Assembly: GCA_021234155.1 (NCBI GenBank)
Contig: JAJEKV010000025.1
Location: 5,685,310-5,749,309, forward strand
DNA from: Isoetes taiwanensis
Lineage: Eukaryota; Streptophyta; Lycopodiopsida; Isoetales; Isoetaceae
DNA: 64,000 bases
Reading direction: 5' to 3'
The position numbers and the translations under genes were made by a program. The notes under the pieces are model-generated. The model ran no database searches and was not told where the DNA came from. It worked only from the letters and a program-made list of their open reading frames with translations. Shown piece by piece: positions 3,087 to 57,066 of the stretch. Position 1 is the first letter of the stretch, and each line of letters opens with the position of its first letter.

Positions 3087-3091
3087 CACAT

Positions 3092-9525: not shown

Positions 9526-9555
9526 TCTTCCAGTTCCAGTAATCGGCTTTTGCTA

Positions 9556-9567: not shown

Positions 9568-9568
9568 C

Positions 9569-17224: not shown

Positions 17225-17480
17225 ATGGTATCGAGCTTTGATCTTGGCGGAATCAGGATCGAAAGCATTGACCGTAATCCTATAGAACTAACTAATCTAG
17301 ACATTGATTTTGGAGATAAAAGCCCAGCACGAACCTTATCAAGTAGTGGGGAAAATTTTTTCTTTCCCGGTAGTTATTAGTAATTACAGAATTAGGATAA
17401 TTAGAGAACATATTTAAGATGAAATAGATGGAAGAAAAGCCTCTAAGAAAACCTAGTAAATTTTAAGTCGCTTTTGTCCG

Positions 17481-28090: not shown

Positions 28091-28120
28091 TTTTGGATAA
28101 CTTCCCTTAACACTGAACCT

Positions 28121-28132
28121 GCTCTGATACCA
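28121..28132 (-). other. Primer binding site of second copia
   Basis: GCTCTGATACCA, the complement of the tRNA-iMet primer site TGGTATCAGAGC. It is separated by GA from the LTR start TGTGAAAA at 28135. Confidence 0.85.
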
Positions 28133-34000: not shown

Positions 34001-34907
34001 TGTCAACAATAACAAGGTTCTTCCTATCAACAAACAATGACATATTCAGTCTTATCTCTTCAACTCTGATTTCCATCAATTTGGATTCCATTGATCCGTC
34101 TATCTGAGTGCCTTTGATGTTAGTTGTGGCGACTCTTTTAATGGGATGCTCATATTTTGGAGTGGATGATCATGGAGAGATATCATATGGTGAGTGCTTT
34201 TGATGTTAGTTGTGGCAACTTCGTTAATAGGATGCTTAGAATTTGAAGTGGTCTTTGAACTGACTTCATCACCATTTACCTCTCACACGAGTTTTGAACC
34301 GACACCAATCTGTACTACACATATTTCAATCTGAAAATGTTGGTAGAGAAATGTCTGTGGCGGCCTTGGCCGCCGTGCTAACTTCCTTGTATGATATTTG
34401 GGCACAAGAACATGTTCTAAACATGAAAAAAAAAAAAAAAAACAAGTGAGGAATGGGATGAAAAAGAGATTGAAGATGACTTATTTGTGCATTAGAATTG
34501 TATGCGTTATTATAATATATAGTAGTTGAACATTCTTCACAAATATCTCTTCTTTGCATCTTGTAACTCTACTTTAAAGAACAAAGACCAATTGTTTCTT
34601 AAATAGTTGCTCGCTTTCATATTATCTAGGTCCAACCTTCTTATGAGAAATAAGGGCCCCATACTTCATGGCTAGAATGTAAGCCGTGTAATCATGTAGT
34701 AAGGTCCTAAGAATTAAAAAAAAATAAAATAAAAAATAAAAAAAAATCATCAGAACGTATTAAAGATTGAAGAAAGAAAACATTAAAGGAACTAGCATAT
34801 GACGAGGAGGCATTCTATGATTTATGTGGTTAATTATTATGAATTATGAGAAGATGAAAGGCTTGTGCTCAGGAAACATACAATACGATAAGATGGGCAA
34901 TGCACAT
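34001..34907. other. AT-rich stretch, no gene seen
   Basis: Contains a poly-A run (34427-34442), an A/T simple-sequence stretch (34710-34748) and no recognisable frame. It ends in CACAT (34903-34907), the left target duplication of the chromovirus. Confidence 0.5.
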
Positions 34908-36474
34908 TGTGACGCTCCCCGAACATATACGACCCCCGGCCGTATACATACAGGGACTTTCCCCTCCCATGGCGACCATCCCGCCACGAGCAGGGCCCTC
35001 CATCTAACCCGGGCCGTCTACATAGAGACGCTCAGGTGAAGGACACGGAGGGGTCATTCGGCCCACGCCTTCGATGGGCGCCTACGTCGCGGAAGCATGA
35101 ATACAAGGTTAGCATACAACATAAATCACATATAAATATCCACCACGAGGGGTGGCACATCCATCCAAGTACCGACGGCAAGAACATGCATCTAAGCTAA
35201 GAAGACACCCAAAACCCAGGTTCTACCCCGGCTCAGACTCTAGTGGGGAAGCGACTGACGGCTGGGTCTCAGGGAATTGGCAGACCGAATCTTGGCATGG
35301 CGTTGGCTGGCATAGAACATCGGCTAGGGTTGTCCACTCCATCCGCCCCTCCTGTGCACACTTTGCAGAGGGGTCGATTCACGCTATGGCTTCGCTATAG
35401 CCTTCCGGAGACGCAGACTCCAGGGATCACCCTTTGAGTCTACTGCAGGTTCATGACACCTGGTCCGATGAGGCAGGTCGGGGACCAGGATCACAGTGGT
35501 GTCGTGGGTGAGCTAGAGAATACGTGCCGCATCAGCGATCCCCGCATCCGTACCCGACTTACTCACCCTAATTCTACTCAAAGTGCATGGTGCCCCATAC
35601 GGGTCACACCACTACACCCAGGGAGTGTCAGACCCATACCCGGCCCTCCACGTGATCGGCTATCAGGCCTAGCCCACTGTAGGAGTCTCAGGAGCCTTTT
35701 ATGCTCGTGCAAGACCCCACCCCCTACTTCACCACTGTGTCCCTTGTCTGGTGCTAAGCCAGACCATAGCGTCTATGACCCGGTGGGCTCTTGCGCACAG
35801 GCCGAAACTACTAGGGTGTTAAAGGAAGCACTAGGAGCATTCTAAACTCAAGCTTAGAGGCCTCTACCCCCCTATTAAAACCCTGTTTACTGAAACTACT
35901 AACTGACACATAGAGACATCGACCATCCCATAACAGAACATCATTCATAATTGAAAGTATTCCTAATTACCAGAGAAGGGTTAGTCTCACCCAAAACCAT
36001 CCAGAAAAGAATCCTAGAGAGTTATTCTACAATTTGCAAATTATATACCACTAACTGGAGTTTCGGCTGGACCCGTTGTCAAGGGGTGCTTCCATGGCTG
36101 TACCGGGGTAACAGCAACAGCGAAAGGGTGTTTGGCGATCTGGGGACGAACAGCAACGGTTTCCTGAGCGCTCAGCTGCTCCTGGCTCCTTGCTGGGTCG
36201 AAATTGAGCTGATATGAGGATGGCGCCTCCCTTTGGTGGCCTAGTTTAGCAACCCTCATGCTGGCCACCCGGGTTATGCCAAATGGCGCCTTCCCACTAT
36301 GAATTGACCTAATCACATGTCTTTAGATAATTATCCTTTATAATTTGGTTAACATAGCTAATTAAATCCATTGTGGCCAACCCCCTAGGTTATCATACCC
36401 TAGGTGGCGTACCTATACTAGGTGACGTGTCAATATATTTATACGTATACCGTATAAATACTTGGAACGTCACA
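34908..36474 (-). repeat. 3' LTR of the chromovirus
   Basis: 1567 bp with 7-base inverted ends TGTGACG and CGTCACA. Near-identical to 46383-47975 and 1516-3086, except where CAG/CTG positions vary. The high similarity of the two LTRs of one element suggests a fairly recent insertion, though consensus error blocks dating. Confidence 0.9.
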
Positions 36475-36487
36475 TTCTCCCCTCCTT
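36475..36487 (-). other. Polypurine tract of the chromovirus
   Basis: Read on the minus strand this is AAGGAGGGGAGAA directly before TGTGACG. The LARD-like element has AAGGTGGGGAGAA before its own TGTGACG, an almost identical plus-strand primer. Confidence 0.85.
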
Positions 36488-37069
36488 AGAATTAATGCTG
36501 TCCTCAGCATTGGGGTTAGTTACAGATATACTAATAAGGAAAATACATTTTAAAGGACCAGGTAATTCCTTATTTCCAAAGGTAATATATATTAAAACTT
36601 TTGAAGTTCAAAACAGTTTAAGCACTAAAGTGCATTTCAGATGATTTATCATAATCAAAAAGTTCAAGGACCAAGGTCCAATGTCAACATTAGAGCAACA
36701 GCAAAACAAGACGTATAGAGAAAATAAAACTTGAAGAGTTCGGGTCATCAGCAACCCTCTAACATTTGCAGGTCACGTACTGCTCACTGGCCTGCACATG
36801 TCAGTATGTCAGTATATATATATTTAGATTGTGGTTGAAGGGACCACCCCCTTATAGTAACGAAATAACTCTATCTACCAGGGGACCTATCATGTCTATG
36901 GTTTGCAGTTCATTGCAGCATAGGGAATGGTGAAGTTCCCATTGTAGCCGAGATGAACGCAGCCTATGATCTATATGCTCTCGTAGCAAGTCGTGGTCAG
37001 CTTATGACCATGTCCTAGAGAACACAAAGGTGATCTCATCATCGGTAACGATTTTTACTTGCGATGCAT
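36488..37069. other. 3' untranslated part of the chromovirus
   Basis: AT-rich sequence between the polypurine tract and the integrase stop. The frame 36462-36644 overlaps the tract and is not supported. Confidence 0.5.
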
Positions 37070-38563
37070 CTACCCCTCTAGGGCGCTACTCTTGGGAATA
37101 AAGCTTCCAAGCTTACCGCCGGGTGCGGGGTTGATAGCATCGTTGATGGTGCGGCCTTGAGATTCCCGCATGAAGTCCGGATAGTGCTTGTCAAGGTCTA
37201 TCTTCATCACCCAAGTAGCATCCTCAACTGGCAAGTGCTTCCACTTAACCAAGTATTGCAACATTTGAGTCCTTCTGGTTTGTTTATAAGCTCGATCAAG
37301 GAGAGTCTCAGGCACTATTTCCAGTTGCTCCTCAGTCATTTCTAGGAGGGTTGGGGTATCCAAAACCTCCTCGGGATCAGGGGTGTGTTGTTTCAAAAGA
37401 CTCACGTGAAAGACCTTGTGGATCTTCAAGCGGGGCGGCAAATCCAAGCGATATGCCTGCTCTCCAACACGCTCAATAATTTTGAACGGTCCAGCCCATC
37501 TGGGTACCAACTTCTTGCAGTTGCCAATCTTTAGCTTGGCTTGTTTTACCTTAATCTTCATCCAAACGGATTCGCCCACCTGAAAAACGCGTGGGGTTCT
37601 GTGCTTATCGGCTATACTCTTCTGACGACTGCGTGCAGCTAATAAGTACCCACGAACTTCCTCGACCAGAGCTTGCATTTCTAATAGAAGTTGTTGAGAA
37701 ACCTCCACTTTAGAAACGGGGTTATGCCATGTGTCGGGAGTAAGGCATTGATAACCATAATTTATCATGAAGGGAGACATTCTGGAAGATTCCTGTTTCA
37801 TGCTGTTGTAGGCAAACTCGACCAGATAAATATAGTCAGCCCATTGTGATTGCTTACTCCACACATAACTTCTTAGCATATCCTCTATGATGCGATTTGT
37901 AAGCTCCGTCTGACCATCGGTTTGAGGATGGTATGCCGTACTCATAGCAAGCTTAGTCTGAATAGTAGCAAAGAAATCTTTCCAGAAAGCACTTACAAAT
38001 TTGGGATCTCTGTCTGACACAATCACTCGTGGCATCCCGTGTAATCTGAAGATCTCTTTGGCAAAAAGCAGAGCAGTATCAAAGGCTGTATCTGTGGTAC
38101 GACACGGCAAGAAATGAGCCATTTTCGACAATTTGTCGACGACTACCATTAAGGCATCATACCCCCGGAGAGTTCGTGGAAGGCCGACAATGAAATCCAT
38201 GGTTATCACCTCCCATTTGGCGTTAGGCACATCCAAAGGTTGCAGCTCGCCTGGAATTCTTAACTGCTCAGCTTTGGTTTGCTGACACACCTGACACTGC
38301 TTAATGTACCTGGCAATGGCCTTTTTCATGGAAGGCTAGAAATAGCTGGATCGGATCTTAAAGTAGGTCTTCATAAACCCGGCGTGTCCAGCTATAGGGC
38401 TATTGTGTGTCTCATGAAGAATAAGCTTCCGTACTCCTGAAGTCTGCGGCACACACAACTTATCCTTGTGATATAACAAGTTGCCCTCTTTCTTATAGGC
38501 ACGAAAAGCCTCGGCGCTCCAGATCGGTCGAAGCTTCCTTAGCCAAACTATTCCAAATGTCAC
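37070..38563 (-). pseudogene. Chromovirus integrase with C-terminal chromodomain
   Basis: Inserts the cDNA into the chromosome. The N-terminal HHCC finger spans the frame ending at 38336 (H..H in LHETHNSPIAGHAGF) and the next one (CQVCQQTK). A TAG stop at 38336-38338 replaces the Trp expected in the SFYWPGM-type motif. The 419-residue frame then has the core Asp in ITMDFIVGLP, Asp in VSDRDPKF and Glu in HPQTDGQTE, so the catalytic triad is complete. The GPY/F-like module reads VPRWAGPFKIIERVGEQAYR then IHKVFHVSLLK. A chromodomain follows at residues 336-386 (QYLVKWKHLPVEDATWV). The first aromatic-cage position seems not to be aromatic. The last 33 residues match no domain. Confidence 0.9.
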
Positions 38564-39250
38564 AGAACTCTGGATCCGTGGCCAAGGTCTGCTCTATCTG
38601 TTTCCCAAACTCACTAGTGAGCGTAGAAATAGCATTACAATGGGTTCGGGTCACCAAGGGATGGCGTGATAAAGCATCCGCAACCACATTGTGCTTGCCA
38701 GGCTTATACATAATCTCAAAATCATACTCCTCGAGAAATTCCATCCATCTTCTCTCGACCGGAGGTTGAGGTTGGCTGGTGGATAAATAACGGAGACTTT
38801 GATGATCCGTATCCAATTGGAATCTTCTACCAAGAAGGTAGTGTCTCCATATCCGCAGAGCACGGACAACGGCTAACAATTCCTGATCATGGGTAGGATA
38901 TCGCTGCTCTGTTTCGTTCATTTTCTTTGAGTCATAGGCAATAACTCTCCCCTCCTCGCATTAGGACCCCTCGGTGGCAATCTTGCGGCATCCGCCGCCA
39001 CCGGTTTATCCCGGTCGATCGGGCAATGTGAGAACCGGTGCTGATGTTAAGGCATCCTTAAGTCGCCGGAAACTTTCCCGAACTTTTGTCTTCCGCTGGT
39101 CCATCCAATCTTTCACCTTCTCATGCTTTGTGAGATTTGTAAGAGGAGCTGCGATCTTCGCAAAATCCTTCACAAATTTTCGATAGTAGCCTGCTAGTCC
39201 CAAGAAACTCCGGACTTCGGAAACATTCGCGGGAATAGGCCATTCTCTTA
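38493..39250 (-). pseudogene. Chromovirus RNase H and RT-RNase H connection
   Basis: The connection block [20 protein letters not shown] then TNLTK lies at 39006-39203. RNase H at 38493-38921 contains NETEQRYPTHDQELLAVVRA, WRHYLLGRRFQLDTDHQSLRY and KPGKHNVVADALSRHP, the standard gypsy blocks with the catalytic Glu (ELLAV) and Asp (DTDHQ, ADALSR). The first RNase H Asp block (before NETEQ) is blurred by altered bases around 38940-39010. RNase H removes template RNA during cDNA synthesis. Frame breaks lie near 38930 and 39200. Confidence 0.85.
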
Positions 39251-39256
39251 TGGCCT

Positions 39257-40014
39257 CTATCTTTGCCGGGTCTGTAGCAATTCCCTCCTCTTAAAAATGA
39301 TATGGCCCAAATAATCGACCTTTGGAGTGGCAAACTTGCACTTAGAGAACTTGGCATAGAGCTGATGACGCCTTAGCTTTTGTAGGGCTAATCTAAGATG
39401 CTTCTCATGCTCCTCGAGGGTCTTACTATAGATGAGAATGTCATCGAAGAAAATAACAACAAAATCATCCAGATATTGCCGAAAGACATCATTCATTAGT
39501 CGCATGAAAGTTGCTGGGGCATTAGTTAGTCCAAAAGGCATAACTGTAAATTCATAATGCCCATATCTAGTGCGAAAAGCAGATTTATGGATGTCCTCCT
39601 CTTTAATCCTTATCTGATGGTATCCGGAGCGTAGATCAATCTTTGAGAAATACTTAGCCCCTTGTAACTGATCCATTAGGTCATCTGCCCTAGGCAAAGC
39701 ATAGCGATTCTTGATGGTATGCTTGTTATGTTGCCGGTAATCAATACACATCCTCGCCGAAAGCCGCCATTTTTCTTAACGAAGAGAATAGGGGCGCCAA
39801 AAGGCGAAACACTAGGTCGGATGAAACCTAGGTTTAGTAGCTCCTGAAGTTGCTTCTTAAGTTCTGCCAATTCCCGAGGACTCATACGGTACGGGGCCTT
39901 GCTAGTAGGCTTGGTACCCGGCTCTAAAGCTATTTCACATTCCACCCTCCTCGAAGGAGGAAGCTTCAATCTCATCTGGGAAAAGGTCACCAAATTCCCG
40001 GAGAAGATGAGCAA
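39257..40014 (-). pseudogene. Chromovirus reverse transcriptase
   Basis: Two frames overlap at 39676-39751. The first carries [20 protein letters not shown] then [19 protein letters not shown]. The second carries [48 protein letters not shown] and the catalytic block [12 protein letters not shown] with its Asp pair. DYLGHII closes the domain near 39300. A small indel at about 39755 separates the frames, and the end drifts out of frame near 39290. Order and spacing are typical of chromovirus RT. Confidence 0.9.
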
Positions 40015-40035
40015 TCCCTTCTGGCAAGGTATCGA

Positions 40036-40470
40036 TTACTTGCTTCTGTTTAGCATCTGACTTCTGATGGGCATAGACTGCATGATAGGGTTGAAGGGTT
40101 CACCTTTAATAGTCACGCGGGCTCCATTAGCTGCGTTGAAGGTAACTTCCCTCTTCTCGCAGTCTATGTTGGCTTTTGCGGATGCCAAGAATTCCATACC
40201 AACAATGAGGTCATATTTACCAATGTCCATCAACTATGCTAGTGGGCACCCAAAGCCACCGGTGCACTGGGCAACATATTTCTATTGATCTTAAGATTGA
40301 TGCGACGACCATGAGTATCACAAGATGTGTCGACCTTTTGATACCATCGGCTAGAGTGACAAGTGCCTTGGTCGAGACCTTAATGTTTCAAGTCTGAAGA
40401 CCCGAGCTATTCTAGGGGAAGCAAAATTATGTGTACTTCCCGTGATCCATAAGAATTACAAAAGGCTTAA
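40036..40470 (-). pseudogene. Chromovirus aspartic protease
   Basis: The C-terminal block YDLIVGMEFLASAKANIDCE is in frame at 40036-40233. About 190 bases upstream the minus strand at 40435-40470 reads FVILMDHGKYT. Here the D-S/T-G active site is altered to DHG, with a stop shortly after. The local bases (GATCACGGG) look like a corrupted GAT-TCA-GGA, one of the CAG-associated alterations seen elsewhere. The protease processes Gag-Pol. A frameshift separates the two parts. Confidence 0.7.
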
Positions 40471-40639
40471 TTGCCTACTTGACCTATGGTGGAAATGACA
40501 AATAGTCGACTTTTCGGCATTGCCGGTTTCTATAGCTGCAAGAATATGAGACGCACCATGAAATATACGGGAGCCTCGCCCTCGATGTGTAAGGTTGTCT
40601 CCAGCTCGTCCCAATCGAGGTCGGCCATGGCCACCGGCA

Positions 40640-41797
40640 AGGCGAACATAAGGACATTGTGCATAAAGTGCCCGTGTCGCATACACTGTAATATGCCTTA
40701 TCCCGCGGAGCTGTTTCGGCCTCCTTAGGAATAGATCAGAAGAGGTTTCATTACTTCCTTGCCGACATTGCTCGCTTTTGTCACCGTGGCCGAAAAGTAA
40801 CTTTCTTTTCCTGCCGGCTATACGAGTTCTGTTGAGAAGGGCCCGGACTTGGCGAACGGGGTTTGTATGGTGTGGCTGGCCGGGCCTGCCAATAAGGAGT
40901 AGGACGCGGGTACTGATTTCTTGGTGTGTCCTCCTCGAGGCTTAATGCCTTAGCCTCGGCCTCCGCAATTGATTTTGGGTCTATGGCCTTAACCATCCGT
41001 TTAATTGATGGGGCCAACCCTTCAATATAACCCTCTACGGCTCTCTTTTCATTCATTCCTGGAACATACAGCCTCAAGCGCATAAACTCATCAGTGTAAG
41101 CCTGGACCGACATACCCTTCTGCTCCAACCTATAGAAGGTTTGAATCTGCTGGCATTTGTGCGCACGAGGCACATAATTCGACTTGAACGCCTTTGGCGA
41201 ACTTCCGGTTGCATCCGCCCTCGCCCGGATGCTTGGCCCTCGCATAGCCCTTCCACCAAACACGGCAGCCTCGTGAAGGTTGGTGGTGGCAACCTTTCCC
41301 CGTATCCTTCTCTGTCATTCCATAAGACTTCCCAAACTCCTTCATCTCATCCAACCAGGATTCGCATTTAAGCCGCCTCGGATTTCCCATCAAACGGGCC
41401 AATTTCCTATTCTTCCATATACTAGTTATAGTCAGATCAACCGCCTTACGGTGCTCTTTTCTGGCGCTTTGCATGGTCACCACGATACCGATGAACCGTA
41501 AGACATCAAGTGGTTGATCGTGAGGAAGTGGCACTATCCTTAGAGGAACTTCGGTGACGCTTTAGCATGAGGCCTCCCGGTGCGTGTATGTGGCTAGCTC
41601 CGTGGGGAGATGGTTGCAGTGTGTGGACTCGATGGTAGCGGAGGTAACTCCGGTCCATCTTCCTGGGTTTGTTGCGGCGGGTTGGCATGCAATACATAGG
41701 CCTGTAATTCGCCTAACTGCCTTTTCATTAACATCGCCTCGCTCAGAGAGTCACCACCGGGCATTGGAGGGTGTCCGCCAAGCGGGCAAGCACGCAC
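40640..41797 (-). pseudogene. Chromovirus gag
   Basis: The N-terminal part (41594-41797) has EAMLMKRQLGELQAYVLHA. The middle (about 41300-41420) carries RLMGNPRRLKCESWLDEMKE. The retrotransposon-gag core (40781-41263) has VPRAHKCQQIQTFYRLEQKG, SVQAYTDEFMRLRLYV and YIEGLAPSIKRMV, typical of plant gypsy gag. A basic, Pro/Gln-rich tail follows. A CCHC knuckle is suggested near 40640-40690, where C, GH and C residues appear in two frames. Frame changes occur near 41260, 41530 and 41600. Gag forms the virus-like particle and binds the RNA. Confidence 0.8.
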
Positions 41798-41839
41798 CGC
41801 CTAAATCGAAAGCATGAAAAAGGTATAAGCATATTTATA

Positions 41840-42309
41840 ACAGATAAATTCTTACAAATTGTATCATGTCGAACAAAGGGGTAGAGAGAGAACACAAGGA
41901 AATTTATTATTATAAGAGGAAAAACTTTCCTATTACAGTTTCACACCAAAAGTTGGTACAGGATTATTATACAAAGATAACATGATACAACTGGAACTTA
42001 GAGTGAACTCACAGACAGTATAAAAAAAAACGAAACTAGAAAGATCCGCCTAGGGGTTCGCAAAAGGGGTAAGTAATTGAATAGCGGACACTCTCACGCA
42101 TGTACCATAACGAAGCTTAGAAGCGTGCCCGTGCTTGGACAATCACCGGGTTGGTATTCCCATGTTGGGCTAACAATGAGAAGATTGAAAAGCCTTCGCA
42201 AAGCATAGAAGAGTTGCCACAGGTGGTCATTGGCGACCTCGAAAGCCTCGTGCCTGCTCATACTCCAATAGTCCCAGGTATGGCACATGGTCGCCTTTCA
42301 GGTCCTCAA
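41840..42309. other. Spacer between extra ORFs and gag
   Basis: AT-rich sequence with a frame at 42094-42288 (minus) containing EAFEVANDHLWQLFYALRRL. Whether this is coding is unclear. It could be a further exon or frame continuation of ORF-c. Confidence 0.35.
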
Positions 42310-42525
42310 AAGCTCATCCCTAAGGATGTTAACTATCTCCAACCCTTTTCAAAGCATCATAGGGTTCTCCTGGTGGCGGGGGTTCCATCTCATAGCCTTC
42401 ATCCCATTCGGGATATTCGCCATATCTCTGGCCATAGTCCTGCTCTGGCGGCCTGGGATCATCCCTCCTTATCATGTCTGTAATCCTCTCCTCATATTCC
42501 CAAAGGGTCTCTTCTGCAAGAGAAT
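42310..42525 (-). CDS. Unrecognised ORF-c segment upstream of gag
   Basis: Reading the minus strand from about 42525 gives a continuous acidic, Pro/Tyr-rich stretch: EETLWEYEERITDMIRRDD, then GEYPEWDEGYEMEPPPPGEP, ending at a stop near 42325. It starts right after TCTCTTGCAG, which has the form of a splice acceptor, so it may be an exon of a spliced transcript from the preceding ORF-b. No family recognised. Composition suggests a disordered protein. Support is limited to open frame, composition and position on the element's coding strand. Confidence 0.35.
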
Positions 42526-42741: not shown

Positions 42742-44116
42742 TTAAGAGCTAGGTCCTCCCTCTTCATCCGTAGGCCTAGGAGGTGGTGGAGGCGGTCGGT
42801 GTCGCAGCAGAGTCACCCCGGGGTCTACTGTGGCAGCCGCAATAGAGGCAACCTCTGGTGGATAGGCAACGGCCAATGGGGCTGCCGTGAGGAGCTTCAT
42901 GCTCATCCAGGGCGCAATATCCTGACCTAAGGCCGTCAGGGCAAGATCTCGTCGCACGAGTACATAAGTAAACGTACGATAGGGGAGCTTCTTGTGCTCG
43001 GCCAGAGTAGAGAGAGCACGGAGGGCCCACCACGAAGCTTCAGCCTCCGGCCCTAAATCCCGGGCTATAAAAAGGACTTGGCCGTGTCGAAAGGCTGACA
43101 AAAAGAAACGGGTAAGGTGGTTGCCCGATACCTTCCCTTGCGGGGTCTCTGATGTGGCCACCTCCTTATCCAAATCCATGGAAACCTCCTCTTCCTTAAG
43201 TTCTTGCTGCTCCTCCTTCACATGAGCAGGGTTATGATATAAATCCTCTCCCTCGTCATCTGAACCCGAGGGAACCTCAACCATATTAATATTTGGGACG
43301 TGAGGTCCCATAGCCGTGAAGGCATCTGGTGAGGGCTGAGAGGCCGGCTCCTGCATCACGAAGTCCCGAAGACGTAGTAGAGTCTCAGCCGGCTCTATGG
43401 TCTCTTGGCGGAACCGAGAGCAGCCGCCGCACCTCCAGGAGGAAGCTCAATAGAAGTGAAGTCAATGAAGTCGCCCATGCAATACTCCGCAAGCTCATAA
43501 AGCACGCGGGTCTTTACGCTTATGCCTAAATCCAGCCACCATGTGATAAGTCCGCATAATATCATCCAGAGAAGATATTCTTGCCCTTGGAGATAGATAA
43601 TCGGAAGGGCATCCAGCCCCGACAAGCCTACTGCCTTGCTCCCCCGCAAGGTGGCAGCTCTTCCGCTAATCGCTCCTAACGGCGAAGTCGCCCATGCCTA
43701 TGTGTTCGCTCTTCCCCTCCTCTGAAGACTCGTGCGTTTGCCTTTCTACTGTGCAAGGTTTCATCTTCTCGACGTATTGGTCCATGAGGATAGCTAGGGC
43801 TTAAGGCGACCTCAAGGTATTGCCGCCCCGATGCCGCACAACGCGTGTGTTTGCCCCATCGGAGCTTTCCCTTCAGGACATCATATGTATGAGTGTCTCC
43901 CCCGAGCATCTCTCGGACTACCTCCCTCTCCAGATACAGCTGGGGAGGATCCCCAAGAGGAATACACAGAGGGAGCATCTCCTCCCTCAGAGAAATCCAA
44001 AAATCCGGCCAGACCGGGTGCCTCCGCATGTTGGCAAGGAGATCTAGGCGCCGGCATAGCAAAGGCCGCAAGCAGGTCGAAAGGGACTTATGGATCCCAT
44101 TGCTCTCCTCGGCCAT
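42742..44116 (-). CDS. Unrecognised ORF-b upstream of gag (frame-broken)
   Basis: Three consecutive minus-strand frames appear to be one protein of about 440-450 residues: 44116-43676 (starts MAEESNGIHKSL), 43649-43395 and 43359-42742. Features in order are a basic Leu-rich start, WPDFWISLREEMLPLCIPL, DVLKGKLRWGK, YELAEYCMGDFIDFTSIELP, and a strongly acidic segment (SGSDDEGEDLYHNPAH, KEEQQELKEEEVSMDLD). Next come a probably folded part (LTRFFLSAFRHGQVLFIARD, ASWWALRALSTLAEHKKLPY) and a Pro-rich tail. No known domain was recognised. It lies directly downstream of the H3-like gene and upstream of gag, all on the same strand. Confidence 0.45.
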
Positions 44117-44365: not shown

Positions 44366-44741
44366 CTAAGGATGCTCCCCCCGAATCCTACGGGCGAGGG
44401 CTAAGTCCTTTGGCATAATGGTAACTCTCTTTGCGTGAATCGCGCAAAGGTTAGCGTCACCAAAAAGTGCCACCAAGTAGGCTTCAGCAGCCTCTTGGAG
44501 TGCCAAAATTGCAAAGGTCTGGAAACGGAGGTCGGTCTTGAATCGCCGCAGCGATCTCCGCACCTGCCTCTCGGAAGGGAAGCTTCCGTGATAGAAGCCG
44601 GGTGGACTTCTCGAACTTGGCGGATTTCCGAAGGCCACCTGCACCGGTCGATACCGATGGGGCTTCCTTTGTGGGGCGGGTTTTGTAGGCGCCCCTTCTG
44701 GGTGTGGCACCGCCTTTAGCGCCAACAAACGGCCGAGTCAT
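44366..44741 (-). CDS. Histone H3-like coding region inside the chromovirus
   Basis: The minus strand encodes most of a histone H3 fold in two overlapping frames. The frame from 44741 gives [12 protein letters not shown] then EIAA (H3 KSTELLIRKLPF..REIAQ). The frame ending at 44366 gives RKPHRYRP, then [20 protein letters not shown], then [20 protein letters not shown] and [18 protein letters not shown]. Compared with ordinary H3, the tail before KPHRYRP is shorter and lacks ARTKQTARKS. GDANLC replaces EDTNLC, KDLAL replaces KDIQL, and the end is GEHP rather than GERA. The loop-1 FKTDLRFQ is canonical, so it is not obviously CENH3. No intron is visible. Frame breaks at about 44560 and 44620-44660 coincide with CAG/CTG positions and may be artefacts. 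A histone made from a retroelement could enter nucleosomes, but expression is unknown. Confidence 0.8.
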
Positions 44742-44917
44742 TCACTCCGCTGCTCTCGGACCGAGTCGGTATTCTTGCCAAAAGTTCCGGCAGTCCTTAG
44801 TTTCTCCTTGTATTGATTCACGGGTCTTTCGGGCTAAACCCTTCCTCCTGCTTAATGGTTACATGTTCGCCGTGGTTGGCCCGACCCACTCCCCACTGCC
44901 CCCTCCGCCCCGCGGGT

Positions 44918-45599
44918 TCACTGGTCCCCGCCGATCCCTCTCTCTTCGTTCAAGCTTCTCCCGTTCTTCCCGGACTCTCCTCGGATCTTCTTGAACCCGA
45001 GCAAAATGTTGGGCTGCGGCGGCCGAAGAAGCTCACTTCGGTACTGGCTGCGGGTCTGAGACCCATATCGACCGTATGGTCGCCGATAATCTATGCTGAT
45101 ATCGGGGATTTCCCCCCAAATAAAACTGTGGTTATCCTCGTCCCAACGGTATGGGGGAACCTCAATTGCCCTGCCATCTATGACGGCAAAGCCATCCCCG
45201 AGATACCGGTACTCCCTTCCTCGAGCGGCCGTATCAGCCCGCTCTATTTCCCGGTGATCATCCTCCCCCGCCAAGCCTCGACACGGCCGGCCTCCGGCCC
45301 CGATGTCTTCCTCCTCAGTATGCCCTTCCCGCTCGGGAGGATAGAATTTAATGAGCATCATGACCATGTCATGTTGCTCGACAATGGTATAGGAGAGCTG
45401 GCGGAGGTTCAGCCGGATCAGAAATGGCTCTGAGAAGTGATAGATAGGATAGGGGATCCTATCGTTATTCTCAAACCGGTTCACCAACTCATCTAAAAGG
45501 ATGTCGATGAAGGCCGACCAGAGCCATGTACCCAAGCATCATGGCATAAATCTCCACGATACCGAGGGTAGAAGGGTCCGGGCTCTTGGTATTGGCCAT
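44918..45599 (-). CDS. Unrecognised ORF-a of the chromovirus leader
   Basis: Starts with ATG at 45599 (MANTKSPDPSTLGIVEIYAM) and continues after a one-base shift near 45535 as a 205-residue frame down to 44918. Segments: WSAFIDILLDELVNRFENND, then IYHFSEPFLIRLNLRQLSYT, QHDMVMMLIKFYPP, an acidic stretch, YLGDGFAVIDGRAIEVPPYR, WGEIPDISIDYRRPYGRYGS and a basic, Gly/Arg-rich end. Copy A (316-729) preserves the first part, so the ORF is older than the duplication. No known domain was recognised. It precedes the H3-like region by about 180 bases, and a stop (TGA) directly before the H3-like ATG argues that they are separate products as written. Confidence 0.5.
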
Positions 45600-46382
45600 A
45601 GCGGTAGCACTAAGGTTCACGGTTGAGCGGTGAGGGCCGGGTGGCGAAAAAAGCGGGTAAGGGAGGCGCTTAGGGTTCCCTAGACACAAGGGCTTAATGG
45701 CAACGCCAAGTCCTGCATGGGCGATGTATGGCGCTCGGGGCGGTCGGGTGCCAAGGCAAGGCAAACAAATAACAAGAAGAAATATTAAACGGCCAGATAA
45801 CTTTTGAAATTTTAAAAATTTCCTATTAACTTTTAAATTTTTATTATTATAAAATAATTATACGGCGGAGATACGCGAGGCATACGGTCGGGTGTCGGCT
45901 GCATTATACGTGTTCCCGCCCGACTAGGGTCGCCGAAAAGCAAGCGGCGCTACCGAAGTTGACTGGCGGCCCGTTGACTCCTCGGGCCGACCGGTCGGGC
46001 GCCGATCGCATTTTCGGCTCTTCTACCGCGGATCGCAAGACGACAAAAGCAAGCTACCGAAGTTGGTTTTCGGCCCGCCCTTGACCATTTTTCGCCTGGA
46101 GACGACTGTTCTAGGGTAATTTGAGTATGTCCGATCCAATGGACGCAACTTCTCTGTCATTTGAGCTACCCACTGACATTTATAGTTCTTCCAATTCTTG
46201 GGCCCTCCAGTCGCCCTATCCTTCTTAAGGTTACAATTTCCTAGTTTAACCTAACACCGAACCAAGCATCAAAGAGGACTAACAACACATTAACTTAGCC
46301 TCCTCCTAACTACCGTGCTACGAGTTAGTGTTTGGCCAGTGCTATGATTTCGAGCAACCGAAATCACGGCTCGATACCATCG
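45600..46382 (-). other. Chromovirus leader between 5' LTR and ORF-a
   Basis: About 780 bases with an AT-rich tract (45790-45865) and a GC-rich flank. Matches 730-1515 in copy A. The primer-site complement at about 46370-46381 reads GGCTCGATACCA, that is GCTCTGATACCA with the CTG position damaged. No gene. Confidence 0.6.
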
Positions 46383-47975
46383 TGGACGCCTCAACATATA
46401 CGACCCCCGGCCGTATACATACGGGGACTTTCCCCTCCCATGGCGACCATCCCGCCACGAGCAGGGCCCTCCATCTAACCCGGGCCGTCTACATAGAGAT
46501 GCTCAGGTGAAGGACACGGAGGGGTCATTCGGCCCACGCCTTCGATGGGCGCCTATGTCGCGGAAGCATGAATACAAGGTTAGCATACAACATAAATCAC
46601 ATATAAATATCCACCACGAGGGGTAGCACATCCATCCAAGTACCGACGGCAAGAACATGCATCTAAGCTAAGAAGACACCCAAAACCCAGGTTCTACCCC
46701 GGCTCAGACTCTAGTGGGGAAGCGACTGACGGCTGGGTCTCAGGGAATTGGCAGACCGAATCTTGGCATGGCGCTATCGGGCATAGAACATCGCCTAGGG
46801 TTGTCCACTCCATCCGCCCCTCCCGTGCACACTTTGCAGAGGGGTCGATTCACGCTTATGGCTTCGCTTATAGCCTTGGGGAGACGCAGCAGACTCGGGG
46901 ATCACTTTGAGTCTACTCCGTGTTCATGACACTGGTCCGATGAGGCAGTGCCTGGGAGGCGCCCCTTCCGTGATCACAAGTGGTGTCGTGGGTGAGCTAG
47001 AGAATACGCGCCGCATCACCACCCCCATCATCCGCACTCCCACTTACTCACCCTAATTCTACTCAAAGTGCATGGTGCCCCATACGGGTCACACCACTAC
47101 ACCCGTGGAGTGTCGGACCCATACAGGCCCCTCCACGTGACCAGGCCATCGTGCCTAGCCCATCTGTAGGAGTCTCAGAGCCTTTTATGCTCGCGTGCAA
47201 GACCCCACCCCTACTTCACCACCATCACAGTGTCCCTTGTCCGGTGCTAAGCCGCACCATAGCGCCTATGACCCGGTGTGGGCTCTTGCGAGACAGCCTA
47301 AACTACTAGGGTGTTAAAGGAAGCACTAGGAGCATTCTAAACTCAAGCTTAGAGGCCTCTACCCCCTATTAATCCCCTCAAGCATCAAAACTACTAACCC
47401 AACCCATAGAGACATCGACCATCCCATAACGTAACATCATTCATAATTGAAAGTATTCCTAATTACCGTGAGAAGGGTTAGTCTCACCCAAAACCATCCA
47501 TAAAAAGAATCCTAGAGAGTTATTCTACAATTTGCAAATTATCTACCACTAACCGGGAGTTTCTACCGGACCCGTTGTCAAGGGGTGCTTCCATGGTCGT
47601 GTCGGCAAACAAAGAACAAATGAAAGGGTGTTTGGCGACTGGGGATCTAACAACAACGGTTTCCTCGACCGCCACCGCCCCCCCGCTCCTTTGTCGGGTC
47701 GAAATTGAGCCGATATGAGGATGGCGCCTCCCTTTGGTGGCCTAGTTTAGCAACCCTCATGCTGGCCACCCGGGTTATGCCAAATGGCGCCTTCCCACTA
47801 TGAATTGACCTAATCACATGTCTTTAGATAATTATCCTTTATAATTTGGTTAACATAGCTAATTAAATCCATTGTGGCCAACCCCCTAGGTTATCATACC
47901 CTAGGTGGCGTACCTATACTAGGTGACGTGTCAATATATTTATACGTATACCGTATAAATACTTGGAACGTCACA
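46383..47975 (-). repeat. 5' LTR of the chromovirus
   Basis: Pairs with 34908-36474. The outer end CGTCACA at 47969-47975 is clean. The inner start near 46383 is blurred (CGTGGACGCC where TGTGACGCTC is expected). Confidence 0.9.
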
Positions 47976-49440
47976 CGCATGGTGACGTAGAGGGACCACG
48001 TTGAGGACCTCAAGAGTTGTTGGGGAGAGGGGAGGGGAGATATGAGGAAAGGACTTTGGAACATCATTCCTAGACTATCCTAGTGATCCGGTGAACGGGA
48101 GCTCAATAAGGTCATGGCTTAGCAAGGTGGTCCCATGAATGGCATTCCTAGACTATGCTAGTGAATCGGGAGCTCAATTAGGGGTCTGGCTTAGCAGATA
48201 GTACCAGTAATGGCAGACCAAATCCCATTTCACATTGCTCTTAACCGGATTCAACATGTTTGATCGACCTTGTGTCCATTCATGCAGTAGGAACATGAAA
48301 CGAAGAGGGCTGAAGCAAGAATGGTCGACCAATGACCATGGCGTCTTGGCTACAACATTGAAAGCAACCCTTAAAAAGGAACTTTCATATTGCTAGAAAA
48401 TGACATGTGGATCGAGGCATACCAATAGAAGACTGCATGCATCATTTTAATTTTTATCTCTTAGCCCCCGCCGAGGGGAGATTTTGTGGAGCAACAAACA
48501 CTTGTCATTTCGTTCAGCTCACCGTTGTTATATCCCCACTCGAGTTAATGGTGTCGTGTGTTCGGCTCGGCTCATTGGCTCCCCACTCGACTTGGTGGCG
48601 TCGTGTATTTCTGCATTAATTGGCTCCCCACCTGACTTGGTGATGTTCTGTGTTTGGCTCGGTTAGTTGGCTCCCCACTCGACATAGTAGGAAGCATGTA
48701 TGAACGAGGGCTGAAGCAAGAATGCTCAACTAGTGACCATGGCATCTTGGCTACAACATTGGAAGCAACCCTTAAAAGAACTTCCATATTGCTAGAAAAT
48801 GATATGTGGATCGAGGCATACCAATAGTAGACAGCGAGCACCATAGATTTTTTTTTATCTCTTATCCCTCGCCGAGGGGGGATTTCATGGAGCAATAGAC
48901 ATCAATTTGTTCAGCTCGACTAGTTGGCTCCCCACCCGACTTGGTGGCGTCGGCTACATTAGTTGGCTCCCCACCCTCGACGTATATGAACCGTATCCCA
49001 TGGGGCCATACATAGGAGATAAATAATAACCAAAGGAAGGTCCAGCTCTTCAGCAATTAAACAAGAAGCAACTAGTAAGCACATTAGACAAGGTTGACAG
49101 GGAAGAATAAGAGCCATCAAAATCAGAGGGACACAAGAGGAGAAATGGAGGGTAAAACGGAAAAGTCGAAACACAGACAGAAATTAAGCGCTTTAAAACT
49201 TGCAGTTAGAACATAGAGAAACCATTCTTTATAAAAAGTATTAATTAAATTTTTTGTTGGGTTCTGGAATCCCAGTTTCCCTGGTATGCTCTGCAGCAGC
49301 ATCATCTGCTGCGAGGCAGCACTGCTCTGCCGCTGCAGCACAGGGCCTTCCTTTTCTTCTAGCCTGCTTTTTTTTTCCGCTCGCCATTTTTTTTCGTTCC
49401 ATTTCTTCGTCTTCGGCACAGTAGCGGCCCCAAATCGCCG
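47976..49440. repeat. Repeat-rich spacer upstream of TAG, copy B
   Basis: Counterpart of 3092-4560, with the same local repeats: the 80 bp doublet near 48065 and 48145, the 150 bp block at 48292-48435 and 48688-48838, and the GGCTCCCCAC..GACTTGGTGGCGTCG motif several times. No gene seen. Confidence 0.7.
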
Positions 49441-50053
49441 AGCAGCTACAGATCCTCTTTAACTCCGTCAGCATTTTCATCAGCACAACCACCAGTAGGG
49501 CGCTAAACTTCAGAAATCCCCTGCTTGTTGATGTGGGTAGTCAATCTGCCCTTTTCCCCCGTTCCTTTGACGCATAAGAATGGCGGAGCTGGTTTGATCT
49601 GCTCTAATTTGGGGGATTGTGCGGTGGAAAAAGCAGAGTGTATCGAAAAACTTCCTTCATGTAACAAAACAGGGGATCCCCATTTGTGGGTTTTCTCGTT
49701 TTTTCGCCCAATCTTCACAGAAAGACCTTCATCGGCTAGCAGAGGACGCCCATTGTCGAGTTCTTCGTGTCAGCCTTTGATTTCTTCGTCTATGAGCTCA
49801 AACGTGAGAAATATCAACAAACAGGGGATTCCTATTGGTGGGTTTTTCGTTTTTCACCTAATTTAGGCGATTCTTGGATATGCATTTCCGACAACGGCAT
49901 TTCTGCATTTTGTAAACAGTATTAATAGTACAGATAAGAAAGGAAACAGGCATTGCATCAGAGTAGGATTTGGATTGTGCTTGAAAAAGGAAATACAAGG
50001 GAGCAAAAGCCAGGGGGCCTCCTAACCGAAGAGCCCGAAGTGAGAGTTCATCC
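49441..50053 (+). promoter_or_regulatory. TAG upstream / 5' leader region, copy B
   Basis: Conserved with 9841-10443 at nearly every base. It likely includes the 5' UTR, with no interrupting transposon in this copy. The frame 49525-49866 has no recognisable product and is not supported as a gene. Confidence 0.45.
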
Positions 50054-52137
50054 ATGTCTGCAGATCTAAAGCAGCAGTTCATCGCCAAGGTAACAGAAGC
50101 ATCTGCCGTGCTTAGAGAACCCGAAACAGGGAGGCCAGTGCTGAGGAAGACACAACCTAAGGTAAATCCTCCTAAAGCTCAGAATAAAACTCCAGTAAAG
50201 CAGCCCCCTCCGATTCTGAAGAAGGTATCAAGCTTTGATCGTCCAGAGCGCCAGAATGACAGCATTTACTCTGTCAGCGGTCTGCATTTCGATGATGGCA
50301 TGCTTTCATATACTTATAACCCAGCTCAGGATGAAATAGTGAAGGAGGACTCCGTGCCCTCTAGTCCTCATCTGTTCAGTTTCTTTGATAGAGTTCATGG
50401 CAGAAATGGCTGGTTCCCTGGTATCAGTAGTCCTGAGGATGAATCTAGTAGCAGTTGTAGCAGTAGCCTCGAGGCCGCCTCACCGCCTCCCAGGATTGCC
50501 AATGCAGCTGCTCCACAGAAGAAAAGAGTCACCTTTGCTGTTCCTGAAGTTATGCCAGAGCCTGTTAGGAAGGCCACACCTTATCCTCCTCGCAAAATCA
50601 AGCTTCCTGTCTGTTCCCGCAAGCAGGCTCCTAAGCCTGGCAGGGTCGCCCCCGAAGGCATAGAACAGGCTTCGCCCGATTCTGTTCGTAAACGCTGTGG
50701 CTGGATCACTGCACAGAGTGGTGAGAAATTGTTGCCCTTTCTCTGATTTCTTGTTATATCTGTTGCTGGTTCTTGCTAAATTTAAAGAGACTTGGTCTTC
50801 TCTTGCTGCTAGTCAGTTTATGTAGTTAGCTTCTCTTGATCCTTTTTCTAAGAACAATAGACAATATTTTCTTAGATAGGTAGACATGCATTCTAGTATT
50901 TCTAGCTAACCTTCATAATCATCATTCACTTTTATGTCATTATTATAGTAGACATTGTAAATTGTGATATTAAACTTCTATGTGGCTCTGATTTCCTTCA
51001 GTTGCAAGAGCAAAACTTTCATGGCAGATTTTCTCTTCACTATTGAATCATTACTAACAAACATTCTCAAATGCAGATCCAACATATGTTGCGTATCATG
51101 ATGAGGAATGGGGTGTTCCTGTTCATGAAGACAAGTACGTTCCCTTCACATTCCCAATTTTTATGTTTACTAACTGGGAAGAGAATGTATTGTCCCTCAA
51201 ACCTGGTTGTAACTTTTACTTAAACTTGTACAACACTTCCCCAGAAAATTGAAAATAGTGTTCTTATGAACCTCTGCAGTTTCATAGTCCAAACCATCCT
51301 ATTCCATGATCAGTAAACGAAGCATTGTAGTACAATTCTCATTGTGTCCTTATATATCTATGGTAATTTTAAACACTGTTTTCTTATGGATTTGAAACTC
51401 TGTTTTCTTATTCATTGCAGGTTGTTATTTGAGTTGCTAACCCTAGCAGGCGCGCAAGCTGAGCTCAGTTGGTCTGCATTATTGAATAAACGAACGCATT
51501 ATAGGTACATCTATTGGAGTCAAGCACTTTGGATAAAAGAAACCCGACCTTTTCAAGACATTAATAGTGCATAGTTACCTTTATTCACAGGGAGGCTTTT
51601 GCTGGATTTGATCCAGCCAAGGTGGCAAAGTTTGATGAGGAAAAGATTCATTTATTAGCAAACGATGCTGAAATCTTGCAACATGATGGGAAGATCCGAG
51701 GTATTGTGGAAAATGCCAAGTGCATTTTAGATGTAAGTTACTTTCAGAATTTCCTTCTTTCGTTTATTAACATAAACAATGACCAAATGAATGACATTTT
51801 CATTTTGCAGATAACCCAAGAATTTGGATCATTTGACAAATTTATATGGCAATTTGTCAACCACAAGCCCATCTGCAACAAATACCGAACATCGCTTCAA
51901 GTGCCTGTGAAAACTCCTAAATCAGAGTACATGAGCAAGGATCTTATCAGGCGTGGTTTCCGATCTGTTGGACCCACAATCATGTACTCTTTTATGCAGG
52001 CTGCCGGTATGACGAATGATCATATCATACAGTGTTTTAGATATCACCAAGTGCAAAATTCAAATATAGAACAAAGAGATAGTAGTGACCATCTTCAAAA
52101 TCATAAAGAGGAAACAGATGAGATGTGCAATCTGTAG
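50054..52137 (+). CDS. DNA-3-methyladenine glycosylase I (plant TAG family), intact copy
   Basis: A base-excision-repair glycosylase expected to remove 3-methyladenine from alkylated DNA in the nucleus. Exons are 50054-50720, 51077-51134, 51421-51504, 51591-51732 and 51811-52137. All introns are GT..AG and phases join to 1278 nt, giving 425 residues. Residues 1-213 are a long low-complexity tail (Ser-rich SSSSCSSSLEAASPPP, basic KTPVKQPPPILKK). The TAG domain runs from RCGW (Cys215) through YHDEEWGVPVHEDK, AELSWSALLNKRTHYR, FGSFDKFIWQFVNHKPI, RRGFRSVGPTIMYSFMQAAG and NDHIIQCF. The four zinc ligands of bacterial Tag are all present, as Cys215, His230, His388 and Cys392. The base-contacting Glu of E. 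coli Tag is Ala here (LAGAQAELSW), as I recall for plant members. The start is the first ATG of the frame. Confidence 0.95.
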
Positions 52138-55100
52138 TCATTAGGAGGGAAAGTGTGTGCTGAGAAGCCTTACCTGGGTGACTGTTGCGGCTCAATTTTA
52201 ATTTTCCCCTTTCTTTAAGATTTTAACACCCTGTAATCTAATTTCCATGTATTATAAAAAGAATCTGTTTGCAACTTATTGTGGAGCAAGGCTATAAGAT
52301 GATAACCTGCGTTATTTATTTTCCAAATGGAACAGGTTACAATTTTCTATCTTGTAAATGAAAAACTTCCATTTATATAGAAGTTTGTGCCACATATCTA
52401 TATTCCATAACGGTTTATAGAAATCAACTTGCACATGTATGCATGTTTATAGATGTAAATATAATCTGAATAACGAAATTGAAGAAAAGCTACCTACTAC
52501 TGTGCAGCTTTTTAGGATAATTATTGGTCCGGTTAAAGGGCAGAATAATGATGTTGCATCATAGGTATTCTTTTTTCACAGCTCATGATGATAGGAGATG
52601 CTGTTATGGATTGGCACGAGATGCAAAATAACAATCCTTTGCTTCCGTTTTTTCTAAAGGTTTGGAAGAAAGAAGATGACAAAGAGGACATGTATGGAGG
52701 AAGCAATGGAGCATTTATTTAACTAAGAGTTTCATTACCTCCACTTGTGCCGGCTAGGCTGGTAGCAGCAACTTGTTAAATTATCCACGGCGAAAGGACG
52801 CCATAGCCTGACAAGCGAGCTCAAAAGGGAGCCGCGTCTCCTTTTCTCAACACTTAATTTAATGGACGCTTGCTGTTGAAGAGTTGGTAGGGAGCACATT
52901 CTGCCCTAATCTGATGCACAGGTTGTGGCCTTGCTGTTGTTGTCAACAGGAAACTAGGCGCCTATACATTTGACCTAACCGCGTTGCATTATTTGGGCCC
53001 ATATATATCCCACAAGCATATGGCTTCTTGTCGCCCTGTCGTAACCTCTCAAACAGAAGCACTTTTGACCTAATCTCCTTTAACCGCGTTCCATTATTTG
53101 GGCCCATATATATCCCACAAGAATATGGCTTCTTGTCGTCCTGTCGTTAGCCTCTCAAAGGGAGCACATTCTGCCCTAATGTTGTACAGCCTTGTAACAC
53201 TCCACTAATCATGTTCCATTATGGATTGCTAACATTTGGGCCCCATATATCCCACAAGCATGACTTCTTTGTCTCTCTGTCCTAACTCTTGAACTTAGGA
53301 AATTGGCTCTTAAACTTAGGAATAGTATTGGGCAAATTTTTTAAACCCTATCCCAAAAAATTCTAATGTTTTGTCAAATAGTCGAATATTTTCAGTTTCG
53401 TAAATTATGTATTACCTTTTATACAAAGATGCATAAAAATCCACCGGAAATTTTCCTACAATGCGCTAGCTTAACCAAAAATTCCTAATTTCAATCGGAA
53501 CAAAGCTTCTCTACCCCATAATTTGCCCAATAGTGCTTAGGAACTGGATAAATTGCACTGCCTTCCACTTCTCACTTTTCAGGACTCAGGAACTTGGACA
53601 AACTACACTGCTTTTCATTTTTCACTTTTATCGTGTCATCTCATCTGACCACATTCCCTTTTCTCCTCCCACTCGCTTCTCCAAAGGATGATGCACATCA
53701 AAGTCTAACTTCAATCTCTAAATCTGAATAGGGAATCAACTGTCGAATATTGTATTGTATCATGGATGTGATGGCCTAATTCTACCTGCAAATGTAGAAA
53801 GCTAACTTCTTGTTACCCAACCCACCATCAACCTTGGAACCTAGGGATCTTTCTATGAATAGCTCTAACTTATTGTAATCTAACCTAACTCCAACCTTGG
53901 AACATAGGGATCTTCCTATGCGGAGACCAAATTGGCCATGGGGCCCAAACAACAAATGGGGCATGGAAGCCCAAAAAGTACAATGAAAAGATAATGCTAA
54001 TGATGCTAGTGCTAATGGTAATTTTTGCTACTTAAATTATCTAGACATAGCCAATCCAAGGATTGGAAGGCCATTGATCTAGAATGATCGATGCGCCTCC
54101 CCTGTAAACTGCCCATTTCTTTTACAGGTGAGCTGCCCTCACCTTACGGAGATCCTCCTTACAATTACATAATTGAAGAGGAGAGAAATCCTACTAGCTG
54201 AGAAACTAGTCCCTCTACGATGGTTTCCCTACTGAAGAACATGTAGGCGACTATGAGCATCTTGAAACTGAACTAAAAGATGTCGAGGACGATCAGGTCT
54301 TGTTGTCTGCACTCTAGTAGCAGAGACAACTCCACCAACATTTACATGCAAACAACCTCTTATGCAAGGGGGGAAAAGAGCTATATTGGGCATTAAATAT
54401 TGTCATTTCATGATGCCAAAACTTTATAGCATCATAGGTCATAAAAGGCCATATCAGACCCAATTAGTTGTTTGTGCTATTTTACAAGGAACATATGATA
54501 ACTAAGATCAGGGGAGCTTCAAACCAATAGTTGTAGGCTCAAGTGAGATCTTAGCCTAGTTGATCCATCTTATTGGATTTCCTTTACCATTTTTTAGTTA
54601 TTTAGTTGAACGAATGGCCTTTGATAAAGGTCAAATGCTAATACAAAGAATAAGGCATTTATTCCTTAGAGATAAGAATAGTATATTTGACAAAATTCTT
54701 AGTAGATATAGGGGAAGGGAAAGAATTGTTATCTTCCATTAGAGATCAATTGGCTTAAACGCATATACCATTCACTTTTTATTACGTATCATCTCGTGAA
54801 AACTCAAACTCGAGATCATGTAGCACTCAATCGACTGAATGTTGGAGGTCAATTGGCTTATGAACCACACGTATTATTCACATTAAATTACGTATCTCAT
54901 GTAAATCTCAAACTCAATATCCTATAGCACTAGGGCTCGAAAATAGCGATGCCCTTAACCAGTAGAAATGCCACCTTATTTTTCAGGCTTCTGGAAAAAA
55001 TATTTGAAAGTGTAGTTTTTGGTGTATTTTAATGGAATTTATGCCCACCAGGAATTCCTAACTTCCAACCATTGCTTGGACCAAGGCAAAAAAAAAAAAA

Positions 55101-55260
55101 AAAAAAAAAAAAGAGACTGCAACCCTAACCTCTATATTTCGGCCCACCATTACCAAAAACTTATGCCTCAGATAATCTAGCAACCTTATCTCTATTTTAT
55201 TTCTCCTTAACCTGAGCGTAACGGTTTTTGAGAGAATTTGAGCAAAGGCATATGATATAA
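52138..55260. other. TAG 3' flank, copy B, no gene seen
   Basis: Matches 12530-15662. It contains the 3' UTR, the tandem block at 52990-53290 and a poly-A run (about 55088-55112). Lacks the 25 bp segment present at 12685-12710 in copy A. Confidence 0.6.
52990..53290. repeat. Imperfect tandem units downstream of TAG, copy B
   Basis: The same three units as 13375-13690, each with TTTGGGCCCATATATATCCC and GGCTTCTTGTCG. Confidence 0.75.
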
Positions 55261-56811: not shown

Positions 56812-56812
56812 A

Positions 56813-56824
56813 TGGTATCAGAGC
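56813..56824 (+). other. Primer binding site of LARD copy B
   Basis: A perfect TGGTATCAGAGC, complementary to the 3' end of initiator tRNA-Met, one base after the LTR. Confidence 0.9.
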
Positions 56825-57066
56825 TTTGATCTTGGCAGACCAGGATCGAGCACTGACCGTAATCCTATAGGAACTAACTAATCTAGACATTCAGTTTGGA
56901 GATAAAAGCCCAAGCACGAACCTCAAGTAGTGGGAAATTTTTTCTTTCCCGGGGTAGAGTTAGTAATTATCTAGAATTAGGATAATTAGAGAACATATTT
57001 AAGATGAAATAGATGGAAGAAAAGCCTCCTAAGAAAACCTAGTAAATTTTAGTCACTTTTTGTCCG

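Follow-up and report, generated by a model that had tools for sequence, protein, structure and literature searches.

A histone H3 core fused to an element-specific N-terminal region in a chromovirus family of Isoetes taiwanensis

The window, the whole stretch of 64,000 nucleotides of Isoetes taiwanensis DNA analyzed here, carries on its minus strand an LTR retrotransposon with a histone H3-like sequence between the 5′ LTR and gag. The open frame at 44366-44737 (minus strand) matched the Pfam Histone family with an E value of 1.7e-24 and canonical H3 chains with E values of about 1e-32, far beyond chance. It lies on the coding strand of the element, with gag on one side and the 5′ LTR on the other, which confirms the placement given in the first-pass annotation. 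The paired LTRs, polypurine tract, primer site, and probable target duplication described there around the H3 sequence were borne out by self-comparison and direct reading.

All genes of the element are encoded on the minus strand. The 5′ LTR (about 46380-47975, inner end approximate) begins with TGTGACG and is directly followed by a primer binding site region with the PBS-like sequence TGGTATCGAGCC (46350-46379). In 13 other copies, the primer binding site was TGGTATCAGAGCC, which we take to be of the initiator tRNA-Met type, and 16 of 20 copies, these 13 included, have TGGTATC immediately behind the LTR. Next comes the H3-fusion gene ORF1 (44366-45599), frame-shifted in the window copy and a single frame elsewhere, whose H3 core extends from KPHRYRP to RRIRGEHP and the stop codon (44366-44665), its middle being out of frame here. 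Two further ORFs, additional to the first-pass annotation, are located between H3 and gag: ORF2 (42742-44116, start approximate; about 466 codons elsewhere) and ORF3 (42051-42475; about 139 codons elsewhere), both broken in the window copy. The gag-pol region (37070-41815, start approximate), also broken, encodes capsid, protease, reverse transcriptase (RT), RNase H, and integrase, with a chromodomain at the integrase C terminus (37169-37315; Pfam Chromo E value of 6.3e-8); the protease domain was seen in a piece of one other copy, the other four in the window copy. The polypurine tract GGAGGGGAGAA (36475-36489) was read directly before the 3′ LTR (34908-36474), the boundaries of both LTRs being taken from self-comparison and reading. 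The element is flanked by ATGCG (47976-47980) on the 5′ side and ATGTG (34903-34907) on the 3′ side, both given on the minus strand and identical in four of five bases, a probable target-site duplication.

A gag capsid, RT, RNase H, and a chromodomain-bearing integrase between LTRs identify the element as a chromovirus, with the primer binding site, the polypurine tract, and the gag-pol domains in Gypsy order. By eye, the chromodomain has non-aromatic residues at the first and third positions of its cage, so that two of the three aromatic residues are missing and direct reading of H3K9me by this chromodomain is not expected. Gypsy gag-pol order and a chromodomain without the first and third aromatic residues are shared with the plant group II chromodomain chromoviruses, as characterized in the accessible part of PMC3350952; unlike them, the present element has three extra ORFs before gag, one of which has an H3 core.

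A region of the window is doubled about 40 kb apart, 3-5007 corresponding to 44867-49890 and 9841-23903, in two pieces, to 49450-63592. In the duplicated halves, blocks of near-100% identity alternate with blocks down to 72%, transversions are about as frequent as transitions, and gaps are mostly of one base. Between the 5′ and 3′ LTRs, 100-base blocks were 96 to 100% identical at both ends and 74 to 94% identical mid-LTR. Patchy identity, parity of transitions and transversions, and single-base gaps look like unpolished long-read error. The I. taiwanensis assembly (1658.30 Mb, 204 scaffolds, and 909 contigs) is Nanopore-based, with racon and pilon used for polishing and with gaps filled, according to the part of PMC8566536 available. 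With noisy blocks in a Nanopore-based assembly, the frame shifts of the window copy are probably in part read errors, and they were left unmended. The doubled region may be genuinely duplicated or may have arisen in assembly. It includes a second, partial copy of the element (1-3083, minus strand), with an LTR at about 1517-3083 and the N-terminal part of ORF1 at 729-7, in which H3 would by alignment fall just beyond the window edge. The left copy of the doubled region contains an extra insertion (about 5007-9841) between 440-base repeats, with copia-like frames inside (by eye); copia-like gag-pol frames with zinc knuckle, integrase, and RT-like sequences were recognized by eye at 24329-28156 and 7899-9552 (minus strand). 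Exons resembling a DNA-3-methyladenine glycosylase I gene were likewise seen by eye at 51058-52137, in the doubled region; their second copy lies about 39.6 kb further left.

Pieces of the ORF1 protein were found in all three minus frames of the window copy from 45599 to 44369. The H3 core reported from KPHRYRP to RRIRG is real; the single frame quoted for it failed between RYRP, which ends at 44645, and FKTDL, which starts at 44542, and since the middle of H3 lies outside that frame, the frame does not give the real protein there. In other copies, intact ORF1 is one frame of about 414 to 420 codons, the first long ORF after the 5′ LTR and ahead of the other long ORFs, and encodes a unique N-terminal region that is joined to a complete H3 core by a helical, basic linker. 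In copy P0001 (414 residues), the Pfam Histone match reached an E value of 3.2e-40, and Pfam, alignment, and key residues agree on a complete H3 histone-fold core. The short tail suggested by the first-pass annotation was thus not upheld, about 310 in-frame residues preceding the H3 core in other copies; this element-specific region stands in place of the canonical N-terminal tail with its K4, K9, and K27 contexts, which is absent. Structure predictions were too poor for use (mean pLDDT of 47 for ORF1, its H3 core also poor, and 30 for ORF2), and a PDB fold search with the poor ORF1 model gave 66 matches at E values up to 10 and none at 0.001.

ORF2 and ORF3 had no significant match in Pfam or PHROG. 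ORF3 was seen between ORF2 and gag in six copies and compared in 15; both ORFs are conserved and under purifying selection. Two similar stretches of the form PV-x-x-HQGxxYL were noticed by eye in ORF2. ARK(S/T)G, which resembles the H3K9/K27 context, occurs in the ORF1 linker of 15 of the 20 H3-picked copies (in L022 at 3187, for example); it was absent from both subgroup B linkers read, and the idea of histone mimicry was therefore set aside and is not relied on.

Recurrence of the arrangement was examined by searches of the own genome covering 1,658,258,908 bases in 1110 contigs. With the window H3 frame as query, 150 matches were scored of 7706 first-look candidates, a figure that is not a copy count. 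With P0001 as query, 102 matched stretches of 76 to 100% identity were obtained (101 candidates scored of 11302), 70 of which were free of stops and 32 contained stops by hand count. From the 150 H3 matches, 20 were taken with the 10-kb stretch around each, half of them selected for long frames. H3 is present in all 20 by construction; alongside it were found an LTR in 19, at least part of the ORF1 N-terminal region in 20, at least part of ORF2 in 20, gag in 18, and RT in 17 (one a short piece). The order 5′ LTR, ORF1-H3, ORF2, gag, RT, RNase H, integrase was kept in most of these copies, the exceptions being interrupted or rearranged, and in some copies, several of the four frames, or all of them, were open over the length read.

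A second sample was picked by RT and is therefore not tied to H3 by construction. The window RT query gave 150 scored matches of 26179 candidates, of which 20 were examined at the expected place of H3, 16 spread down the list and four (L057-L060) chosen for long gag-pol frames. On first reading, H3 was found in 13 of the 20, in L050 only at the edge of the stretch. Wider reading of the seven misses showed H3 in L065, the ORF1 N-terminal part in L063, and displaced ORF2 and/or ORF3 in L062 and L064, giving a final tally of 14 of 20 for H3 and 15 of 20 for ORF1. In L062, an H3-query match located on the RT strand, about 7.3 kb upstream of that RT, is probably the displaced H3. Three copies (L061, L066, and L067) had none of ORF1 to ORF3 in the stretch read. 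Copies lacking H3 with a clean insertion boundary had been named in the first-pass annotation as counterevidence; the three blanks are H3-less as far as read, and no clean ORF1-less junction, that is, no empty site, was found among the RT-picked copies. Five of the 14 RT-picked H3 stretches (L043, L055, L056, L059, and L060) were free of stops and frame breaks as read, eight were broken, and L050 was cut by the stretch. The H3-like ORF thus does recur at the same place, and because the same arrangement is repeated on many contigs, a single-copy accident or misassembly was rejected. Among viral contigs, 24 stretches matched an ORF1 pattern and none was confirmed.

Selection was estimated from 31 distinct H3-picked copies, L002, L004, and L005, which lie inside L031, L032, and L033, being counted once. 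For each part, only copies free of stops and with at least 85% of the part in one frame were counted, and 11 of the 31 loci did not extend as far as ORF3, gag, or RT. As the ratio of mean dN to mean dS, with the median of pairs in brackets, dN/dS was 0.037 (0.037) for the H3 core in 31 copies at a mean dS of 0.54, 0.104 (0.094) for the ORF1 N-terminal part in 18, 0.222 (0.219) for the linker in 21, 0.076 (0.076) for ORF2 in nine, 0.052 (0.056) for ORF3 in 15 after removal of three saturated pairs, 0.070 (0.073) for gag in seven, and 0.085 (0.033) for RT in 11 copies. The H3 core is therefore under strong purifying selection, at about the level of RT and tighter than the remainder of ORF1. A stronger constraint on H3 than on RT was suggested by the means and was dropped since the medians are alike; only comparable constraint is claimed.

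These copies had been found by similarity to H3, which biases them towards a conserved H3. In the RT-picked copies, the pooled pN/pS was 0.20 for 66 pairs of 12 copies, broken ones included and L050 and L052 left out. The three unbroken RT-picked pairs of subgroup B gave dN/dS values of 0.024, 0.049, and 0.062, two of the three copies concerned (L059 and L060) having been chosen for long gag-pol frames; L043 gave 0.041 and 0.052 against two subgroup A copies, and L065, in an alignment with six gaps, 0.15 to 0.21 against A copies. Across copies, the H3-like ORF is not in neutral decay, and a decayed pseudogene was rejected on dN/dS. Recurrence at the same place together with the low dN/dS supports the proposal that the family captured an H3 variant and has kept it, despite nine of the 14 RT-picked stretches being broken or cut. 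On the best explanation, ORF1 is a true gene that the chromovirus family maintains.

Two old subgroups of the family were distinguished. Relative to P0001, the H3 core of subgroup B (L056, L059, and L060) was 84 to 86% identical, and the ORF1 N-terminal part of L059 and L060 was 32 to 35% identical. Between A and B, pS of H3 was 0.72 to 0.90, near saturation, with pN of 0.10 to 0.11, whereas dS of RT (L030, with 25 codons, left out) was only 0.43 to 0.73. With synonymous divergence so much greater in H3 than in RT, ORF1 and gag-pol seem to have partly separate histories. The simplest reading would be that element backbones have exchanged their ORF1; alternatively, synonymous sites may have changed more slowly in RT.

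The origin of the core was approached by comparison with host and reference histones. An H3.1 query against the genome gave 15 full-length matches at 96 to 98% identity, then a gap, then 135 matches at 71 to 86% (150 scored); from this distribution, the 15 are taken to be host H3 genes, separate from the element. Against manually entered comparison sequences, the element core was 85% identical to H3.1 over 98 columns, 81% identical to H3.3 over 110 columns, and 43% identical to Arabidopsis CENH3, with no extra loop residues. L90, presumably the state found in plant H3.3, and A107 were present in 31 of 31 H3-picked and 13 of 13 RT-picked copies. The changes of the element core's own are A107 and L124, both in 31 of 31 H3-picked copies and in 13 of 13 and 12 of 12 RT-picked copies, respectively. 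L055 reads RFQTHAIL, near plant H3.3. In a small H3 tree, run as the first-pass annotation had proposed, the 14 transposon rows fell on one side (support of 87/50, weak), apart from CENH3, and did not join it. On identity, the absence of a longer loop 1, and the tree, capture of a CENH3 was rejected. Judged by sequence, the core is nearest plant H3.3 and not CENH3, and the donor was probably a host gene of the H3.3 type, captured once. The element core shares L90 with plant H3.3 and differs from it in having no canonical tail and an N-terminal extension of about 310 residues.

Conserved residues bear on what such a protein could do. All 31 copies retain C110, H113, R116, D123, and I130, and 29 of them L126, positions that we take to be H3-H3′ contacts; R83, K115, and T118, presumably H3 contacts to DNA, were kept in 31 of 31. 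Residues of this kind would permit the core to pair with host H4, and histone chaperones may take it up, placing the ORF1 protein in or on host chromatin. The resulting nucleosome would carry no canonical K4/K9/K27 tail and would display the N-terminal module of the element instead. An H3 of the element's own might further mark or bias the chromatin entered, as the first-pass annotation proposed. Silencing of plant retrotransposons runs largely via H3-tail marks. The likeliest benefit would be local, protection of the element's chromatin from silencing and/or a chromatin-bound partner for its gag, integrase, or ORF2/ORF3 products; the sequence data would fit anti-silencing and tethering alike, and the two cannot be told apart on them. 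As a whole, the account of a maintained ORF1, a chromatin-seated H3 with replaced tail, a local benefit, and one H3.3-type capture is our best explanation, to which we would give an even chance. A fuller version, in which the lineage's own tail-replaced H3 would sit in nucleosomes at element copies or integration sites, resist H3K9/K27 silencing, and offer a docking module, with divergence into old subgroups and transfer of H3 genes among backbones, is put forward tentatively and with somewhat more doubt than belief.

The same conservation can be read without nucleosomes. The H3 core might be a docking surface for chaperones or, with host H4, compact cDNA in particles in a nucleocapsid-like or decoy role. 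The presumably chaperone-facing residues L126, R129, I130, and R131 are kept in 29 to 31 of 31 copies, as this would lead one to expect, and nucleic-acid binding or assembly would be in keeping with the basic linker and the helical region predicted. A pure decoy would have no need for the DNA contacts R83, K115, and T118, yet these are invariant, a point that leaves the cDNA-packing form unaffected; this group of non-nucleosomal roles is unlikely, if worth taking seriously. The core might also be mostly a tag for nuclear retention and DNA binding, with the N-terminal region of ORF1 doing the real work. That region is itself constrained (dN/dS of 0.104) and is recognizable in subgroup B at 32 to 35% identity, but in each comparison made, the H3 core was more conserved than the N-terminal part, and we regard such a tag as improbable.

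Far less probable is that the H3 is a passenger, a pseudogene captured and then copied along with the element in the way described, in the consulted portion of PMC6710886, for Pseudocercospora fijiensis. Many copies are broken, the window copy included, and 32 of 102 matched stretches have stops; against this stand the dN/dS of 0.037 at a mean dS of 0.54, the values of 0.024 to 0.062 in subgroup B and of 0.041 and 0.052 for L043, and the 70 of 102 stretches without stops. An artifact, a misassembly, or an H3 pseudogene that landed by chance in a single element would accord with a noisy and partly duplicated window, but the arrangement is repeated on many contigs, and the probability of such an origin is close to nil.

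The nearest precedent is found in fungal hAT transposons with a captured H3. In Pyrenophora tritici-repentis, an H3-like (H3L) gene resides in a hAT DNA transposon, with 26 nearly identical H3L genes and ESTs reported in the part of PMC3538342 seen. There, as here, an H3-like ORF is carried and amplified by a transposable element, next to an ORF whose function is unknown; the Pyrenophora element is described in the same portion as a fungal DNA transposon with terminal inverted repeats and H3L as its own ORF, whereas the I. taiwanensis element is an LTR retrotransposon without the hAT transposase and terminal inverted repeats, has far more diverged copies, and has H3 fused behind about 310 residues. 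The hAT-captured H3 of Pseudocercospora fijiensis was likewise amplified to many copies; according to the excerpted text of PMC6710886, all copies save the original were inactivated by RIP, in contrast to the purifying selection observed here. An extra ORF that encodes a host-type domain is also fixed in a Gypsy family of Phalaenopsis, with a different domain, a 2-ODD/m6A demethylase, and 15 extra domains were recorded in 121 angiosperm genomes, with no histone domain among those discussed in the accessible sections of that paper (PMC9289625). The word "histone" does not occur in a text on additional ORFs in plant LTR elements (PMC7264820), in a 2026 review of gene capture in plants (PMC13317346), or in the main texts, as far as accessible, of two Isoetes genome papers (including PMC8566536), and a literature search of titles and abstract openings found no H3-encoding LTR retrotransposon.

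The chromovirus H3 is an LTR counterpart of the fungal hAT-H3 cases. For annotators, it carries a warning that well over a hundred H3-like matches in this genome (135 of the 150 scored) are not host H3 genes. If the proposed reading is true, a selfish element would supply a chromatin component, its own H3 without the canonical tail, under a constraint comparable with that on RT. This makes a concrete question testable, namely, whether a transposon-coded H3 enters nucleosomes, where it does so, and with what effect on the marking of the element.
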